A stretch of 64,000 nucleotides of DNA from Thiocapsa rosea. GTDB taxonomy: Bacteria > Pseudomonadota > Gammaproteobacteria > Chromatiales > Chromatiaceae. The notes under the pieces were generated by a model. That model ran no database searches. It had not been told where the DNA came from and was given only the letters and a program-made list of their open reading frames with translations. Of the stretch, positions 38,824 to 46,520 are shown piece after piece (positions within the stretch are counted from its first letter, which is position 1; every line of letters starts with the position of its first letter). The stretch is from contig NZ_RBXL01000001.1 of assembly GCF_003634315.1 (NCBI RefSeq), forward strand, positions 976,501-1,040,500. Direction: 5' to 3'. Both the position numbers and the translations under genes were made by a program.

Positions 38824-41811
38824 ATGGGACACCAGCAGAACACCCTGTCGACCCTGCCCTTGCGGGTCCGCAAGCGCGACGGTGTCGAGGTGCGTTTCGA
38901 TGCGGCCAAGATCGAGTCTGCGATCCGTCGCGCCGGACAGGCGAGCGGCGAGTTCGGTACGCCCGAGGCGAGTCTGCTGACCGCGCAGGTGGTCAAGGTG
39001 CTGGCACATCGTTACGGGGCCGAGCGCCTGCCCGACATCGAAGGCATCCAGGATGTCGTCGAGCAGACGCTGATCAGCGCCAACCACTTCGAGACCGCCC
39101 GCAGCTACATCGTCTATCGCGAGCAGCATAAGAAGCTGCGCGACGAGCATCGCACGCTGGTCGATGTCGGCGGCTCCATCAACGAATATCTCGACCGCTC
39201 GGACTGGCGGGTCGCGGCCAATGCCAACCAGGGTTACTCCCTCGGCGGCCTGATCCTCAACACCTCGGGCAAGATGATCGCCAACTACTGGCTGAGCCAC
39301 GTCTACCCGCCCGAGATCGGCCAGGCCCATCGCGACGGCGACATCCATATCCACGATCTGGACATGCTCTCCGGCTACTGCGCCGGTTGGTCGCTGCGCA
39401 CCCTGCTCAACGAGGGGCTGAACGGGGTCCCGGGCAAGGTCGAGGCGGGTCCACCCAAGCACATGTCCTCGGCGATCGGGCAGATCGTCAACTTTCTCGG
39501 CACGCTTCAGAACGAGTGGGCCGGTGCACAGGCGTTTTCGAGCTTCGATACCTACATGGCGCCTTTCGTGCGCGTCGACGGGCTGGATTACCCTCATGTC
39601 AAACAGGCGATCCAGGAGCTGATCTACAACCTGAATGTGCCCTCGCGTTGGGGTTGCCAGTGTGTCGACGACGAGACCGAGTGTCTGACCGAGAACGGCT
39701 GGAAGCGACACGACCAAATCGCCCTGGGCGAGAAGATCGCCACACTCGACTGGCGCACTAATCAGCTCGAATATCTGGAACCGCTGGCGATCACCGCCTA
39801 CGACTTCGACGGCGACATGTACGTGCTGCGCAACCGCACGCAGGAGCAATGGGTCACGCCACGGCACAAGATCCTGCGCAAGGTCTTCAACAGCGATGAC
39901 CGCTGGGTACTGGAAGACATCGAGACCGTCGCGCAGCTGAAGTCCCCGGTGATCATACCCAATGCCTGGGAGACCACCTCGACGCTCGAGGTCGACGATA
40001 AGCTGGTCATGCTGATGGCCTGGGTGGTCGCCGAGGGCAATTTCGACTTCAGCAACGGTCGCCGCCGGGTTGCTCTCTATCAGTCGACGGGAAATCCGGA
40101 AAACGCCGCCGAAATCGAATGGCTGCTGCACGAGCTCGATCTGAGCTGGCATCGCTACGAGCACACCGGGACCTACGCCAATTTCCCCGTCTGCCGCTAT
40201 CGCCTGAACCGGGACGCGAGCGACTTCGTGCTCGGGTATCTCGAGCGCAAGTGTGTCCCCGGATTCATCCGCACCCTGTCGGTCCGGCAGATCCGACTCT
40301 TCCTCGACACCTACGTGAAGGGCGACGGCAGCGTCGAGGAGAGCGGACGCGTCCGGATCTACACCAATGACAGAGAGAATCTCGATGCCCTGCAGGAGTT
40401 GTGCGCATTGGCCGGCTACGGCAGCACGGTCTACACGCGCAAGGACTCCGGCGTGCACGTGCTCAACATCATCCGCAACCGCGACACCTACATCCAGCTC
40501 ATCGAGCGCAAGCCTTACAAGGGTCTGGTCTGGTGCCCGACCACACGCAACGGCACCTTTGTCGCACGCCGTCGCGGCAAGACCTTTGTCACCGGCAACA
40601 CGCCCTTTACGAATCTGACCTTCGACTGGGTCTGCCCCGAGGATCTGCGCGAGCAGGTGCCGGTGATCGCGGGCGTGGAGCAACCTTTTACCTACGGCGA
40701 TCTCCAGACCGAGATGGACCTGATCAATCGGGCCTATATCGAGGTGATGACCGAGGGCGACGCCAAGGGCCGGATCTTCACCTTCCCGATCCCGACCTAC
40801 AACATCACCTCCGACTTCCCGTGGGACAGCGAGAACGCGGAGCATCTGTTCGAGATGACGGCGAAGTACGGCCTGCCTTACTTCCAGAATTTCCTGAACT
40901 CCGAGCTGACGCCGAACATGGTACGGTCCATGTGCTGCCGGCTGCAGCTGGACCTGCGCGAGCTTCTGAAGCGCGGCAACGGGCTCTTCGGCTCGGCCGA
41001 GCAGACCGGCTCGCTCGGCGTCGTGACCATCAACTGTGCGCGGTTGGGCTTCACCCATCGGGGCGACGAGGCCGGACTGCTGGCACGGCTCGACAGGCTC
41101 TTGGACCTCTCGCGCAACAGTCTCGAGATCAAGCGCAAGGTCATCCAGCGCCACATGGATGCCGGGCTCTTCCCTTATACCAAGCGGTATCTAGGCACGC
41201 TGCGCAACCATTTCTCGACCATCGGCGTGAACGGGATCAACGAACTGATCCGCAACTTCACCAATGACTCCGATGACATCACGACGGCATGGGGCCACGC
41301 CATGGCCTGCCGGATCCTGGATCATGTCCGCGCTCGGATGGTCGAGTTTCAGGAATCGACCGGCAGCATGTACAACCTGGAGGCCACGCCCGCGGAGGGC
41401 ACGACCTATCGCTTCGCACGCGAGGACAAGAAGCGCTTCCCGGACATCCTCCAGGCCGGCACGTCCGAGACGCCCTATTACACCAACAGCTCGCAGCTGC
41501 CGGTGGGCTATACGGACGACCCCTTCGAGGCGCTCGCCATGCAGGAGGCGCTGCAGACCAAGTACACGGGCGGCACGGTGCTGCACCTCTACATGAACGA
41601 GCAGATCTCGACGACCGACGCCTGCAAGCGGTTGGTCCGGCGGGCACTGGAAAACTTCCGTCAGCCCTACATCACGGTGACGCCGGTGTTCTCGATCTGC
41701 CCCAAACACGGCTACATCGCGGGCGAGCACGAGTTCTGCCCGGTCTGCGACCGCGAGCTGATCGCACGCAAGACCGCGGCGCTCGACGCGACACTCGCGT
41801 CGGTCGGATGA
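38824..41811 (+). CDS. nrdD: Anaerobic ribonucleoside-triphosphate reductase NrdD, intein-containing, without glycyl-radical domain
   Basis: 995 residues as translated. An ATP-cone (about residues 12-105: LRVRKRDGVEVRFDAAKIES) precedes the NrdD barrel. At residue 279 the conserved SRWGCQ is interrupted by a 313-residue intein, and TPFTNLTFDW continues after it, so the spliced protein is 682 residues. The C-terminus has the zinc-binding ICPKHGYIAGEHEFCPVC and then stops. The glycyl-radical segment (RVxGY) that normally follows is absent and is encoded by the next small gene. Class III enzymes reduce NTPs to dNTPs under anoxia after NrdG activation. Only a weak ribosome site precedes ATG 38824. 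Confidence 0.93.
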   Translation: MGHQQNTLSTLPLRVRKRDGVEVRFDAAKIESAIRRAGQASGEFGTPEASLLTAQVVKVLAHRYGAERLPDIEGIQDVVEQTLISANHFETARSYIVYREQHKKLRDEHRTLVDVGGSINEYLDRSDWRVAANANQGYSLGGLILNTSGKMIANYWLSHVYPPEIGQAHRDGDIHIHDLDMLSGYCAGWSLRTLLNEGLNGVPGKVEAGPPKHMSSAIGQIVNFLGTLQNEWAGAQAFSSFDTYMAPFVRVDGLDYPHVKQAIQELIYNLNVPSRWGCQCVDDETECLTENGWKRHDQIALGEKIATLDWRTNQLEYLEPLAITAYDFDGDMYVLRNRTQEQWVTPRHKILRKVFNSDDRWVLEDIETVAQLKSPVIIPNAWETTSTLEVDDKLVMLMAWVVAEGNFDFSNGRRRVALYQSTGNPENAAEIEWLLHELDLSWHRYEHTGTYANFPVCRYRLNRDASDFVLGYLERKCVPGFIRTLSVRQIRLFLDTYVKGDGSVEESGRVRIYTNDRENLDALQELCALAGYGSTVYTRKDSGVHVLNIIRNRDTYIQLIERKPYKGLVWCPTTRNGTFVARRRGKTFVTGNTPFTNLTFDWVCPEDLREQVPVIAGVEQPFTYGDLQTEMDLINRAYIEVMTEGDAKGRIFTFPIPTYNITSDFPWDSENAEHLFEMTAKYGLPYFQNFLNSELTPNMVRSMCCRLQLDLRELLKRGNGLFGSAEQTGSLGVVTINCARLGFTHRGDEAGLLARLDRLLDLSRNSLEIKRKVIQRHMDAGLFPYTKRYLGTLRNHFSTIGVNGINELIRNFTNDSDDITTAWGHAMACRILDHVRARMVEFQESTGSMYNLEATPAEGTTYRFAREDKKRFPDILQAGTSETPYYTNSSQLPVGYTDDPFEALAMQEALQTKYTGGTVLHLYMNEQISTTDACKRLVRRALENFRQPYITVTPVFSICPKHGYIAGEHEFCPVCDRELIARKTAALDATLASVG
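39661..40599 (+). other. Intein with LAGLIDADG-type homing endonuclease in NrdD
   Basis: 313 residues (NrdD residues 280-592). Block A starts with Cys (CVDDETECLTENGW). Block B has the TxxH motif VTPRHKIL (Thr345, His348). Endonuclease blocks are MLMAWVVAEGNF and FLDTYVKGDGSVE, with VPGFI between. Blocks F/G end TFVTGN followed by extein Thr593. The usual His before the terminal Asn is Gly. Splicing restores SRWGCQ-TPFTN, a conserved NrdD segment. The frame is intact and both acidic residues of the endonuclease motifs are present, so homing activity is possible. Confidence 0.92.
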
Positions 41812-41864
41812 GCGATTGCGTCACCCGACAAACAACATCATCAACTGAAATCAGGAGCACGACC

Positions 41865-42056
41865 TTGACCCACCAAACCATCGAGCTGAAGACCGAAGAG
41901 CGCACCCGTTGCGAGGTCTGGACGCGCGTCATGGGCTATCACCGCCCGGTTTCGGCCTTCAACGCAGGCAAGCGTGCGGAGCACGCCGAGCGCTGCTACT
42001 TCACCGAGGCACCCAACGGATCCGCAATCCGTGACGAGCGCCGCGCCGCCGCCTAG
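41865..42056 (+). CDS. Stand-alone glycyl-radical domain of class III ribonucleotide reductase
   Basis: A 63-residue protein. CEVWTRVMGYHRPVSAFNAGKRAEHAERCYF is the glycyl-radical segment that in other NrdD proteins follows the zinc site; the Gly of RVMGY would hold the radical. The TTG at 41865 is chosen because GGAG lies seven bases upstream. An in-frame ATG at 41808, overlapping the nrdD stop by ATGA, would add 19 residues of low-complexity sequence. It must associate with NrdD in trans and be activated by NrdG, the next gene. Comparable in logic to the spare-part protein YfiD/GrcA of pyruvate formate-lyase. Confidence 0.88.
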   Translation: MTHQTIELKTEERTRCEVWTRVMGYHRPVSAFNAGKRAEHAERCYFTEAPNGSAIRDERRAAA

Positions 42057-42095: not shown

Positions 42096-42848
42096 ATGTC
42101 TCGACAAACGCCCTGCCCGAGCGACGCCGATGGGCCGAGCGCTGCTGTCTCGGCGGAGGCGAAGCGCTTGCGTATCGGCGGCTTCGTCCCGTTGACAACG
42201 ATCGACTACCCCGGCGAACTCGCCGCGGTCGTCTTCTGTCAAGGTTGTCCTTGGCGCTGTGGCTACTGCCACAACAGCGCCCTGATCGATCCGAGCGCGG
42301 CCCCGATCATCGCCTGGCCGGAGGTTCACGCATTCCTCGAGCGTCGCCGCGGGCTGCTCGACGCCGTCGTCTTCAGCGGCGGCGAGCCGACCCTCCAATC
42401 CGCACTGGCCGCAGCCATGACCGAGGTCCGGGGGCTCGGGTTCAAGGTCGGCTTGCACACCGCCGGCCCCGCGCCGGAACGCTTGGCACGGCTGTTACAC
42501 CTTCTGGACTGGGTCGCTCTCGACATCAAGGCGCTGCCTGAAGACTATCCCGCGATCACGGGTGTCCCCCGATCAGGGGATGCAGCCTGGGAGAGTTTGG
42601 CGTTGATCCAAGCGTCCGGCGTTACGCTGGAGGTCCGAACAACGGCCATGCCGGACTGGACCGCGCGCGATCTCGCGGCGCTTGCCGCCGCGCTCGCTCA
42701 GAAGGGCGTGCGGCGATATGCCGTTCAAGCCTGCGACACTCGGCACGCCCTGGATCCTCGCCTTGCGCCGCCGAGAATCCCGCTCGCGCAGCTCGCGGCC
42801 GCCATCGATCCCGCATCCTTCGACCGATTCCTCTTGCGTGGTCACTGA
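42096..42848 (+). CDS. nrdG: Anaerobic ribonucleotide reductase activase NrdG
   Basis: 250 residues, radical SAM. The cluster motif is CQGCPWRCGYCHN (CxxxCxxC), followed by VVFSGGEPTLQ and WVALDIKALPEDY. Length and motifs fit the longer NrdG2-type activases rather than the 155-residue E. coli NrdG. It uses S-adenosylmethionine to generate the glycyl radical, here probably on the separate 63-residue protein encoded 40 bp upstream. The first 25 residues are non-conserved. Confidence 0.9.
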   Translation: MSRQTPCPSDADGPSAAVSAEAKRLRIGGFVPLTTIDYPGELAAVVFCQGCPWRCGYCHNSALIDPSAAPIIAWPEVHAFLERRRGLLDAVVFSGGEPTLQSALAAAMTEVRGLGFKVGLHTAGPAPERLARLLHLLDWVALDIKALPEDYPAITGVPRSGDAAWESLALIQASGVTLEVRTTAMPDWTARDLAALAAALAQKGVRRYAVQACDTRHALDPRLAPPRIPLAQLAAAIDPASFDRFLLRGH

Positions 42849-43403: not shown

Positions 43404-43559
43404 CTAGAAGCCATATCCCAGAGAGATCACATAGCTGTGCACGACCAGCGCAACGATCAGGACAGCGAACAGGATCGGCATCAACCAAACCGCAGGATTA
43501 ACGACCAACCAGACCTTCCAATCGTCTTCCGGGTTTTTGGGTTTGTTGACTTCACTCAT
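43404..43559 (-). CDS. pucA: Light-harvesting antenna alpha subunit (LH2 type), second copy
   Basis: 51 residues. A polar N-terminus (MSEVNKPKNPEDDWKVWLVV) is followed by one membrane helix starting NPAVWLMPILFAVL. The bacteriochlorophyll-ligating His lies in VALVVHSYVISLGYGF. The short C-terminus without an extension and the WKVWLVVNPAVWLMP start match purple sulfur LH2 alpha chains. AAGGTG lies upstream of ATG 43559. It pairs with the beta gene 29 bp upstream. Confidence 0.88.
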   Translation of the reverse strand: MSEVNKPKNPEDDWKVWLVVNPAVWLMPILFAVLIVALVVHSYVISLGYGF

Positions 43560-43588
43560 CACAATCACCTTTTCGTGTCAAAAACGGA

Positions 43589-43729
43589 TTAGAACCAAGG
43601 ATTGGCTGCGAGGACGAACAGATGCACCACCGCGGCGATACCGACAAATGCCGTATAGGTGATTTTCCACTGCTCGTGAAATTCCTTCGCTTGCTGCTCG
43701 GTCAAACCCGACAAGGATTGCTCAGCCAT
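43589..43729 (-). CDS. pucB: Light-harvesting antenna beta subunit, second copy
   Basis: 46 residues. The amphipathic N-terminus LSGLTEEQ-type (LSGLTEQQAKEFHEQWK) carries the His of the EFH segment, followed by one membrane helix with the bacteriochlorophyll ligand His in GIAAVVHLFVLAANPWF. The C-terminal NPWF replaces the WRPW seen in most beta chains. GGAG lies upstream of ATG 43729. Confidence 0.88.
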   Translation of the reverse strand: MAEQSLSGLTEQQAKEFHEQWKITYTAFVGIAAVVHLFVLAANPWF

Positions 43730-43818
43730 CGTTTATCTCCAACAGGAATGATTGAAAAAACCCGTTTATCCTGGATCGCCGGTGACCCGTTCGGTCAGAG
43801 GCGCTACCGAGATCTCGA

Positions 43819-44037
43819 TTATTCAGCGACCGCGGCCGGTGCTGCCTCGACTGCCGCGGGTGCTTCGGCAACCGCCTCGACTGGACTGAAGCCGATGCCG
43901 AGCGACCAAGCGTAGGCATGGACAACCAACGCCACTGCCAGGACCGCGAACAGGATGGGCATCAACCACACCGCCGGATTCAACACCAGCCAAATCCGAT
44001 AGTCCTTCTCAAGCGGCTTGTAGTCGAATACGTTCAT
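43819..44037 (-). CDS. pucA: Light-harvesting antenna alpha subunit (LH2 type), first copy
   Basis: 72 residues. DYRIWLVLNPAVWLMPILFAVL and ALVVHAYAWSLGIGF give the single membrane helix and the ligand His. Unlike the second copy it has an Ala/Pro/Glu-rich C-terminal extension of about 22 residues (SPVEAVAEAPAAVEAAP..). The N-terminus also differs (MNVFDYKPLEKDY), so the two pairs may give antenna rings with different spectra. GAGGAG precedes ATG 44037; the gene lies 20 bp after its beta partner. Confidence 0.9.
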   Translation of the reverse strand: MNVFDYKPLEKDYRIWLVLNPAVWLMPILFAVLAVALVVHAYAWSLGIGFSPVEAVAEAPAAVEAAPAAVAE

Positions 44038-44057
44038 GGATGTCTCCTCTTAAGACC

Positions 44058-44201
44058 CTAAAACCAAGGATTGGCCGCGAGCACGAACAAATGCACGAGT
44101 ACCGCAATGCCGACGAACGCGCTATAGGTGATCTTGAACTGCTCGTGAAACTCTTTCGCCTGTTGCTCGGTTAAACCGGAAAGGCTTGCCTGTTCAGCCA
44201 T
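44058..44201 (-). CDS. pucB: Light-harvesting antenna beta subunit, first copy
   Basis: 47 residues, highly similar to the second beta: SLSGLTEQQAKEFHEQFKI then ITYSAFVGIAVLVHLFVLAAN and the same NPWF end. The ligand His is in VLVHLF. GGAGG lies seven bases before ATG 44201. First gene of the pucBA-pucBA operon, about 180 nt downstream of the predicted transcription start. Confidence 0.88.
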   Translation of the reverse strand: MAEQASLSGLTEQQAKEFHEQFKITYSAFVGIAVLVHLFVLAANPWF

Positions 44202-44682: not shown

Positions 44683-44810
44683 TGAAAGACAGTCGCCGGT
44701 GTGCTCTATGACGGCTCACCGACGATGGGCATTGGCGCGGCCCACGCCGAACCGGCGCGGCGACTGCGGTCCCGAGGAGCAAGACGCGTGCGTTGGAGCA
44801 GACGACATCC

Positions 44811-46520
44811 ATGCAGACTGAATTCGCAAACGTGACCGGACAGACCGGACTCGCAAAATGCCGGACCGGCATTCGTGGTCTCGACGAGATCACCGGCGGA
44901 GGCTTGCCTCGCGGGCGACCGACCCTGATCGGCGGCGCAGCAGGTTGCGGAAAGACCCTCCTGGCGATGGAGTTTCTCGTGCGGGGAGCGCGCGAGTTCG
45001 ACGAGCCGGGCGTGTTCATGGCCTTCGAGGAAAGCGAGGACGAATTGATCGTCAACGTGGAGTCACTCGGCTTCGCACTCGGCACGCTGGTGGAACAGAA
45101 TCGCATCCTGCTCGACAGCGTGCGGATCGAGCGCGGCGAGATCGAAGAAACGGGTGAGTACGATCTGGATGGCCTGTTCGTGCGCCTCGGCAGCGCGATC
45201 GCCGAGGTCGGGGCAAGGCGCGTGGCGTTGGACGGAATCGACGCACTGTTCGCCGCCCTGGCCAACGAGGCGATCGTGCGTGCCGAGCTGCGGCGTCTGT
45301 TCCGCTGGCTCAAGGATCAGGGCGTCACGGCGGTGATCACTGGCGAGCAAGGCGAGAAGACCCTCACACGACATGGCTTGGAGGAATACGTCAGCGACTG
45401 CGTCATCTTCCTGGACCACCGCATGACCAACCAGGTCGCCACCCGCCGCCTACGCATCGTGAAGTATCGCGGCTCCCGCCACGGGACCAACGAATACCCG
45501 ACGCTGATCGATCAAGAGGGTTTCAGTGTCCTGCCGATCAGCTCGGTGAGTCTGAGCCACCGGGTCTCTCGCGAGTACGTGTCCACCGGGATCCCGAGAC
45601 TGGACACCATGCTCGGCGGCGGGGGCTATTTCAAAGGCAGCAGTGTCCTGCTCTCCGGCGCCTCGGGTGCGGGCAAGAGCAGCATCGCGACAGCGTTTGC
45701 CGACGGCATCTGCAGGCGGGGGGAACGCTGTCTCTTTTGGTCCTCGGAGGAGTCACCCGACCAGATCCTGCGCAACATGGCCTCGATCGGATTCGACCTG
45801 CAGCCGCACATCGACCGGGGGCTGTTGGTCTGTCACGCCGTCCGTCCGACCCTTTACGGACTCGAGAATCATCTGGTCAGCCTGCACAGGCTGGTCGAGT
45901 CAATCCGTCCCGCTGCAGTGATCCTTGACCCGATCACGAACTTCGCCGCGGTCGGCGACACCGCGGAGGTCAAGACGATGCTCACCCGGATCATCGACTT
46001 CCTGAAAGGTGCCGGGATCACCGCGCTCTTCACCAGCTTGACGCAGGGGTCCGAATCCACACATTCGGAACGGACCGACGAGGGCGTGAGCTCACTGATC
46101 GACACCTGGCTGATGCTGCAGATGGTGCAATCCTTCGGCGAGCGCAACCGACTCCTCTATGTCCTGAAAAGCCGCGGCATGGCCCACTCCAATCAGGTCC
46201 GAGAGCTCGTGCTGGACAACGAGGGACTCCATCTGTCCGATGTCTACACCCGGGCCGGCGAGGTCCTCACCGGAGGGGCGCGAATCGCGCAGGAAACCCG
46301 TGATCAGGCCGACCACCTCGCGGTTCGGCAGGCACATGAGCGTGAGCAACGTGCCAGGGAGCTGCAGCGCCGAAATCTCATGGCCCGAATTCAGTCGCTG
46401 GAGGCACAGCTCGTCGGGATCGATGTAGATGCAGCGATTGCGAAGACCGAAGAGGCCCAACGTGTCGCGAATGCCGCGCACGATGAGGCCGCGGTGTTTC
46501 ACGCCAGGGGCGCTGACTGA
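44811..46520 (+). CDS. kaiC: KaiC-like clock ATPase
   Basis: 569 residues, two RecA-like domains. CI has Walker A GAAGCGKT (residues 42-49) with catalytic EE in [11 protein letters not shown] has GASGAGKSS at about residue 283 and [10 protein letters not shown]. The phosphorylation segment aligns as T422 and S427-S428 ([13 protein letters not shown]), a Ser-Ser pair where Synechococcus has Ser-Thr. A charged, coiled C-terminal tail of about 70 residues replaces the KaiA-binding tail. No kaiA is nearby. ATG 44811 is used; a TTG six codons earlier is possible. It is followed by two kaiB genes, a kinase and a regulator. Confidence 0.93.

Follow-up and report, generated by a model that had tools for sequence, protein, structure and literature searches.

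Gene organization of the nrdD locus

The window, a stretch of 64,000 nucleotides of Thiocapsa rosea analysed as a whole, carries nrdD, a small gene and nrdG consecutively on its + strand. The features assigned at this locus were as follows:

38824-41811 (+): nrdD, large subunit, 995 aa with its intein and 682 aa without; PF03477, PF13597, NF006126
39661-40599 (+): intein of 313 aa, LAGLIDADG_3, inside nrdD between SRWGCQ and TPFTNLTF; PF14528, 4.5e-10
41698-41748 (+): zinc-ribbon motif CPKHGYIAGEHEFCPVC, the final conserved element in NrdD; role assigned by comparison with T. maritima
41853-41857 (+): ribosome-binding site AGGAG of the small gene, 7 nt before its TTG start
41865-42056 (+): putative gene for the small radical subunit, 63 aa from a TTG start; its product aligns with the end of NRDD
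41910-41912 (+): Cys16, ahead of E-V-W, identified by residue comparison among virus and fused copies
41934-41936 (+): Gly24 in RVMGY, expected radical site from its place in the NRDD profile
42096-42848 (+): nrdG, encoding an NrdG2-type radical SAM activase; follows on the same strand; TIGR02495, 204 bits

The large chain belongs to the class III ribonucleotide reductases (RNRs) by its NRDD catalytic domain (PF13597, 6.1e-166 in a Pfam search; NF006126, 1109 bits), not to class II (NrdJab), and includes an ATP cone (PF03477), the barrel and a zinc ribbon, while the NrdG-type radical SAM activase typical of class III enzymes is encoded by nrdG. The glycyl-radical segment is absent from this chain: its match to the 562-position NRDD profile covers up to position 529, the NF006126 match ends at 659 of 684, and the protein terminates 20 residues past CPKHGYIAGEHEFCPVC. 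RVxGY with N.GK, which would be expected at the C-terminus of the same chain, sits on the small chain, whose match spans positions 532-562; as judged from this profile coverage, the two proteins complement each other. Both parts of the original prediction, that NrdD ends right after the zinc motif without a radical segment and that this segment is supplied by the next small gene with its own ribosome-binding site and TTG start, followed by nrdG, were thus borne out. The zinc motif of T. maritima NrdD is given as CxxxHx6CxxC, and in solved NrdD structures the zinc ribbon is described as following the last barrel strand and preceding the C-terminal loop that holds the radical glycine (PMC4493059), which places the cut after the ribbon and ahead of the radical loop. 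By homology to Gly621/Gly580 of NrdD, Gly24 of the small protein would be the radical site. A phmmer search of the small protein against the PDB, up to E 10, gave no match.

The nrdD intein, whose boundaries we placed at the extein motifs SRWGCQ and TPFTNLTF, had gone unmentioned in the original prediction. Longer, two-piece NrdD frames of similar look occur in some relatives (e.g. L079, L080, L082, L091), most of the listed loci being without them, and elsewhere in the same genome (G000:C1:2885750-2888494) a 1423-aa frame encodes an RNR large subunit of PF02867 type with two spaced hits, as if separated by another intein. Judged by eye, short ORFs after nrdG (43404-44201, -) have the look of light-harvesting alpha/beta polypeptides in two pairs, and a frame at 44793-46520 (+) has that of a KaiC-type double ATPase.

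Distribution and conservation of the split

The small protein was found in 93 of 146 genomes of the same family and, counting one locus per genome, 91 of these are split and two are fused (L203, L242), with frame relations 0/1/2 of 26/38/27 among the split loci. One of the two fused loci, L203 (G144:C4), appears to have re-fused naturally, nrdD and the small gene being joined by a linker that retains the split-type LKDEERTRCEVW. The separation of NrdD from its radical segment is therefore firmly established: 91 of the 93 family loci share it and each of the three relative frames is represented, which settles the concern, voiced in the original prediction, that a frameshift had created it. The accompanying caution that the arrangement could be common in relatives proved justified, as it extends to many Pseudomonadota, to Sulfuricurvum and to some Omnitrophota metagenome-assembled genomes (MAGs).

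Among the named loci, i.e. the best 80 of 576 relatives from genome contigs, 76 are split pairs and four are stand-alone small genes; the split ones are distributed over frames 0/1/2 as 22/29/25, with a distance from nrdD stop to small-gene start of -26 to 549 nt (median 40, n=75; overlaps in 8/75). Shine–Dalgarno-like sequences also precede the small genes at other loci listed. In the class sample, a small-protein match, split or fused, was obtained in 33 of 369 genomes, and 28 further loci (L034-L061) comprise 25 split, one fused and two solo cases, one of the latter (L061) at a contig end. NF006126 likewise exceeded its cut-off in 33 of the 369 class-sample genomes (28 split, four fused, one cut by a contig end), where the split or fused call is our own reading of the model range, a stop at 649-673 being taken as split and one at 682-683 as fused. 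The phylum sample gave matches in 21 of 398 genomes, and 17 further loci there include eight split, five fused, one solo and three without a scored domain. Carriers among the matches listed include Thiocapsa, Allochromatium, Stutzerimonas, Pseudomonas, Halomonas, Thiobacillus and Cupriavidus, plasmid-borne cases in Bradyrhizobium, Paracoccus and Sulfuricurvum (Campylobacterota), and some Omnitrophota MAGs. Fused forms of the same NrdD subfamily occur in Actinomyces and Acidithiobacillus.

The core of the small gene is under purifying selection, with a pN/pS of 0.21-0.25 in three sets, the virus set being near saturation at synonymous sites. In an NrdD tree of 98 rows, built by a quick method and carrying long-branch warnings, a starred branch separates all 89 split rows and six of nine fused rows from the remaining three fused rows, which served as the chosen outgroup. 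Because the split and fused labels need seven changes on this tree and only two are forced by starred branches, a single split with later re-fusions is not distinguishable from several splits. Labels for the small gene in the PLSDB gene table are nrdD, anaerobic ribonucleoside-triphosphate reductase, hypothetical, or none, and a description of the split between NrdD and its radical segment was not found in the open-licence literature.

Individual loci show further peculiarities. A short two-hairpin insert lies inside the start of the small gene at L046 and L355 (same genome) and at L241, across two genera; in L241 it duplicates EERTRCE, and an Rfam search of L046 and L241 returned no match. 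At L243 (G136:C71), the frame of the small gene changes near its end, through error or decay. At L264, on plasmid pAZI09 of Azospira sp. I09, split nrdD, the small gene and nrdG lie within a class I RNR cluster that adjoins genes for an integrase and Tn3 transposase; the whole may be an RNR package that is mobile.

Indications that the split enzyme is functional

Several lines of published data bear on loci of this type. The locus on plasmid pHG1 of Cupriavidus necator H16 encodes an NrdD of 676 aa, a small protein of 66 aa and an NrdG of 239 aa, and complete denitrification is said to require nrdDG of pHG1, in a second-hand account that concerns the whole locus and a strain lacking the plasmid (PMC2864759); it is thus very likely that the split locus functions in vivo. 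The same source gives C. metallidurans nrdDG as Rmet_5137 and Rmet_5139; the nrdD locus of this species is split, and the number skipped between the two would correspond to the small gene. In P. stutzeri, a 51-aa protein annotated as an 'oxygen-sensitive reductase' is reported from direct experiments (113 spectra) as seen only under O2 limitation (PMC10433244). One S. stutzeri small gene is 51 aa long when read from ATG, and the detected protein is likely the small radical protein, to judge by length and annotation rather than by the sequence of the accession. Overall, we regard the split enzyme as almost certainly functional.

A structural model had also been envisaged in the original prediction. 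Joining the NrdD and small chain of a relative as one protein gave an AF2 model with a pLDDT of 67.6 and a pTM of 0.65, for which Foldseek ranks 1-36 are all class III RNRs. The overall fold was thereby recovered, whereas the loop is of low confidence and docking is not visible.

Unlinked genes and additional copies in genomes with a single NrdD

In three genomes, the two genes lie apart, neither a small gene nor NrdG having been found within 1.5 kb of NrdD. In G803, NrdD lies at C4:22520-24508 (-) and the only small-protein match, beside NrdG, at C4:33658-33783 (-), about 9 kb away. In G889 and G890, both Holosporaceae MAGs and thus weaker evidence, NrdD is on one contig and the small gene adjoins NrdG on another.

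Other genomes hold more small genes than large ones. Small-protein matches number two to four each in G027, G057, G132, G140, G124, G073 and G142, and two each in G410 and G891. Leaving aside L169 (one of four in G027), which was too weak to be counted, we obtained 14 extra stand-alone copies, one or two per genome, in single-NrdD genomes; L178 (G124:C1:94038, one of three in G124) is degenerate, its radical glycine being replaced by aspartate (VMDY). An NrdD search of 14 genomes was positive in 13, with one gene each, four of which give hits in two pieces of one frame, as an intein would produce; NrdD was not found in G892, a Cyanobium MAG with one stand-alone piece.

Phage genes lie next to seven of the extra copies, namely those for a Mu-type portal (L172, L173, L174), MuF (L172, L174), capsid E (L171), tail proteins (L149, L168) and RecT (L182). 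The neighbours of L167 have no Pfam match, and an identical protein is present on an IMG/VR contig (L271). Two more copies are plasmid-borne, on pALVIN01 of A. vinosum and pAt1 of A. tepidum (equated with L177 and L179). Overall, ten of the 14 extra copies are in prophages or on plasmids, L175, L176, L178 and L180 being without placement.

Virus-borne copies

Scanning IMG/VR with an alignment of the small protein yielded 190 relatives, and in the best 80 of these, all 80 small genes stand alone in the stretch examined. The best 80 of 169 relatives from a second scan added 76 new loci, 75 of them stand-alone and one (L430) a split pair with NrdD and NrdG. By contig name, the best rows of the two scans represent 108 contigs, 107 of which have the small gene alone in the stretch examined; less than 600 nt lie upstream of the small gene in 13 of the 108 virus loci (11 in the first scan, two in the second), and records may be fragments. 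In tblastn searches of the virus loci from the first scan, NrdD and NrdG were each found in 0/80, against 76/80 and 78/80 of bacterial loci with the same queries. A search of whole records for 50 of the first 80, many of them fragments, likewise gave 0/50 for NrdD and 0/50 for NrdG; the NrdD query used there matched 13 of 14 genomes, and the positive control for NrdG comes only from tblastn on the loci. Conversely, two less sensitive scans for NrdD of this type found five virus contigs, and NrdD ends after the zinc ribbon in all five, with the small gene just behind in two, 713 nt behind in one and not found in two.

Neighbour proteins matched PHROGs in 17 of 20 cases (terminase, tail fibre, tape measure, head protease, baseplate and DNA polymerase among them), the other three matching nothing, and in 6 of 10 cases in another set. 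At L325, the small gene is flanked by the genes for DNA polymerase and clamp loader. Bare proteins of 44-70 aa account for many of the virus copies, and one family (eight aligned) has an added N-terminal part with four invariant cysteines. The first 80 include 59 different cores, with a pN/pS of 0.246. The scan patterns contained WTRVMGY and FNxGK, so conservation at these motifs is partly due to selection of the sequences; outside the patterns, the column of Cys16 holds cysteine in 97% of the 80 virus copies, and three Cys, five Thr and two Ile in 10 fused forms. All five small proteins tried also match phrog_4132 (179 positions, function listed as unknown) at positions 117-159.

Among isolated phages in INPHARED, the small protein of the window had no match at E 0.01. 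With two other small proteins and a cut-off of E 1, five and eight records matched weakly (E 3e-4 to 0.7); eight of the weakly matched features are annotated as NrdD, and the match in MT835493 lies within an 810-codon open frame that looks fused. Since these INPHARED searches found no stand-alone piece, the case for virus carriage rests on IMG/VR contigs and prophages.

A proposed two-part enzyme with an exchangeable radical subunit

Taken together, these observations are best explained by a class III RNR made of two polypeptides, in which the radical subunit acts in trans, can be exchanged and can be supplied by phages, a reading to which we assign a probability of about 0.7. NrdD would provide the ATP cone, the catalytic barrel and the zinc ribbon, and the 63-residue protein would form the loop that dips into the barrel and bears the radical glycine. 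NrdG would generate the glycyl radical on the small protein, either free or docked, and the charged protein, once in the barrel, would pass the radical to the active-site cysteine. As a separate chain, the small protein could act in trans and be exchanged; if cut by oxygen, it alone would be lost, and could be replaced without remaking NrdD. Phages or plasmids may add copies of their own.

The suggestion in the original prediction of a detachable, replaceable subunit gains indirect support here, because unlinked genes in three genomes, extra copies alongside a single NrdD and lone virus-borne pieces all point to trans action and replaceability; functional repair after oxygen exposure is, as in that prediction, an inference. 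These three situations are also what is new in the present data. Exchange in trans we consider probable, three times in four by our reckoning. The wider picture, in which the radical segment is a mobile subunit that serves bacteria as a replaceable carrier and is borne alone by diverse phages and plasmids to keep the host reductase active, or to reactivate it once oxygen has damaged it, while they replicate their DNA, stands at even odds. Much the same can be said of the narrower claim that phage copies serve dNTP supply, which may equally hold or fail.

The split could instead reflect plain gene fission into a permanent complex, with neither exchange nor repair, the phage copies being selfish or carried over incidentally. 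The close pairing of nrdD and the small gene in 76 of the best 80 of 576 relatives, eight of 75 pairs overlapping, and the position of nrdG as the next gene in annotated plasmid loci are as expected for co-made subunits of a stable complex. A permanent complex accounts poorly, however, for the unlinked genes of G803, G889 and G890, for surplus copies beside one NrdD, and for a small gene that is alone on 107 of 108 virus contigs and evolves at a pN/pS of about 0.25 in the first 80, and we therefore consider it unlikely. Less likely still is that the phage and prophage proteins act against the host, as decoys for NrdG or dead-end plugs of NrdD. Free copies could indeed compete for NrdG, and the family with the four-cysteine N-terminal part might be suited to such a role, but virus copies retain the glycine and the residues around it (partly by selection, as the patterns held WTRVMGY), and at L325 the gene sits between replication genes, where dNTP supply would help.

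Two further readings question the split itself. In the window, nrdD and the small gene are in different frames with a TGA between them, and the small-gene frame is open upstream as far as 41289; this open stretch would fit a frameshift or readthrough yielding a fused enzyme, but as a general mechanism such fusion was rejected on the spread of frames and spacings (22/29/25 over the 76 split loci among the best 80 of 576, gaps of up to 549 nt), and with the Shine–Dalgarno-like sites and the 9 kb between the genes in G803 it is very improbable. Sequencing error or gene decay, to which a few broken members might point (L178 without its glycine, L243 shifted near its end), can be dismissed, since the core is under purifying selection and the arrangement is shared by 91 of 93 family loci and by 76 of the best 80 of 576 relatives, isolates and complete genomes included.

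Relation to known systems and significance

The present enzyme shares with the class III NrdDs of the PRK08270/NF006126 subfamily the ATP cone, NRDD domain, zinc-ribbon motif, radical-loop sequence and NrdG partner, and differs from them in that the radical loop is a separate product without a covalent link to the zinc ribbon. NrdJa/NrdJb of Pseudomonas aeruginosa is a class II RNR, B12-dependent and without a glycyl radical. It resembles the present case in being encoded by two genes with the C-terminal domains on the second chain (PMC9669993, PMC4009431). Aeromonas phage phiAS4 also has nrdD in several coding pieces; these are presented as three broken regions in one phage, and the relevant passages of that report do not describe the arrangement as conserved (PMC3653736).

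The closest functional parallel is offered by YfiD (GrcA) of E. coli and Y06I of T4, small free proteins with a radical-type glycine that, like the small chain, are both bacterial and phage-coded. They restore oxygen-cut pyruvate formate-lyase, a role that is conceivable for the partner of split NrdD; PMC8683613 (2021) presents these two as the only spare parts so far validated, pyruvate formate-lyase being the enzyme served by each, and raises the question of whether such parts exist for other glycyl radical enzymes. Membership of the GrcA/YfiD family was rejected for the small protein, which has no PFL-type match and, among glycyl-radical families, matches only NRDD (Pfam, E up to 1). The small chain is also shorter (mostly about 44-90 aa, against about 14 kDa) and serves a different enzyme family, in which NrdD has no built-in radical segment; for that reason, it would primarily be a required subunit and only secondarily a possible spare.

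We know of no earlier spare part for a glycyl radical enzyme besides pyruvate formate-lyase. The split radical segment provides a concrete and widespread candidate for RNR, in tractable bacteria such as Cupriavidus necator, with fused, re-fused, split, unlinked and virus-borne forms at hand as natural variants. The spare-part question thereby becomes directly testable, as charging and exchange could be followed on a polypeptide of about 60 residues, away from the rest of the enzyme. The same data suggest a function for the phage family phrog_4132, and indicate that NrdD searches requiring the radical motif may overlook split enzymes. If the proposed exchange is true, the small protein would be the first such spare part known to us outside pyruvate formate-lyase, and would serve ribonucleotide reductase.
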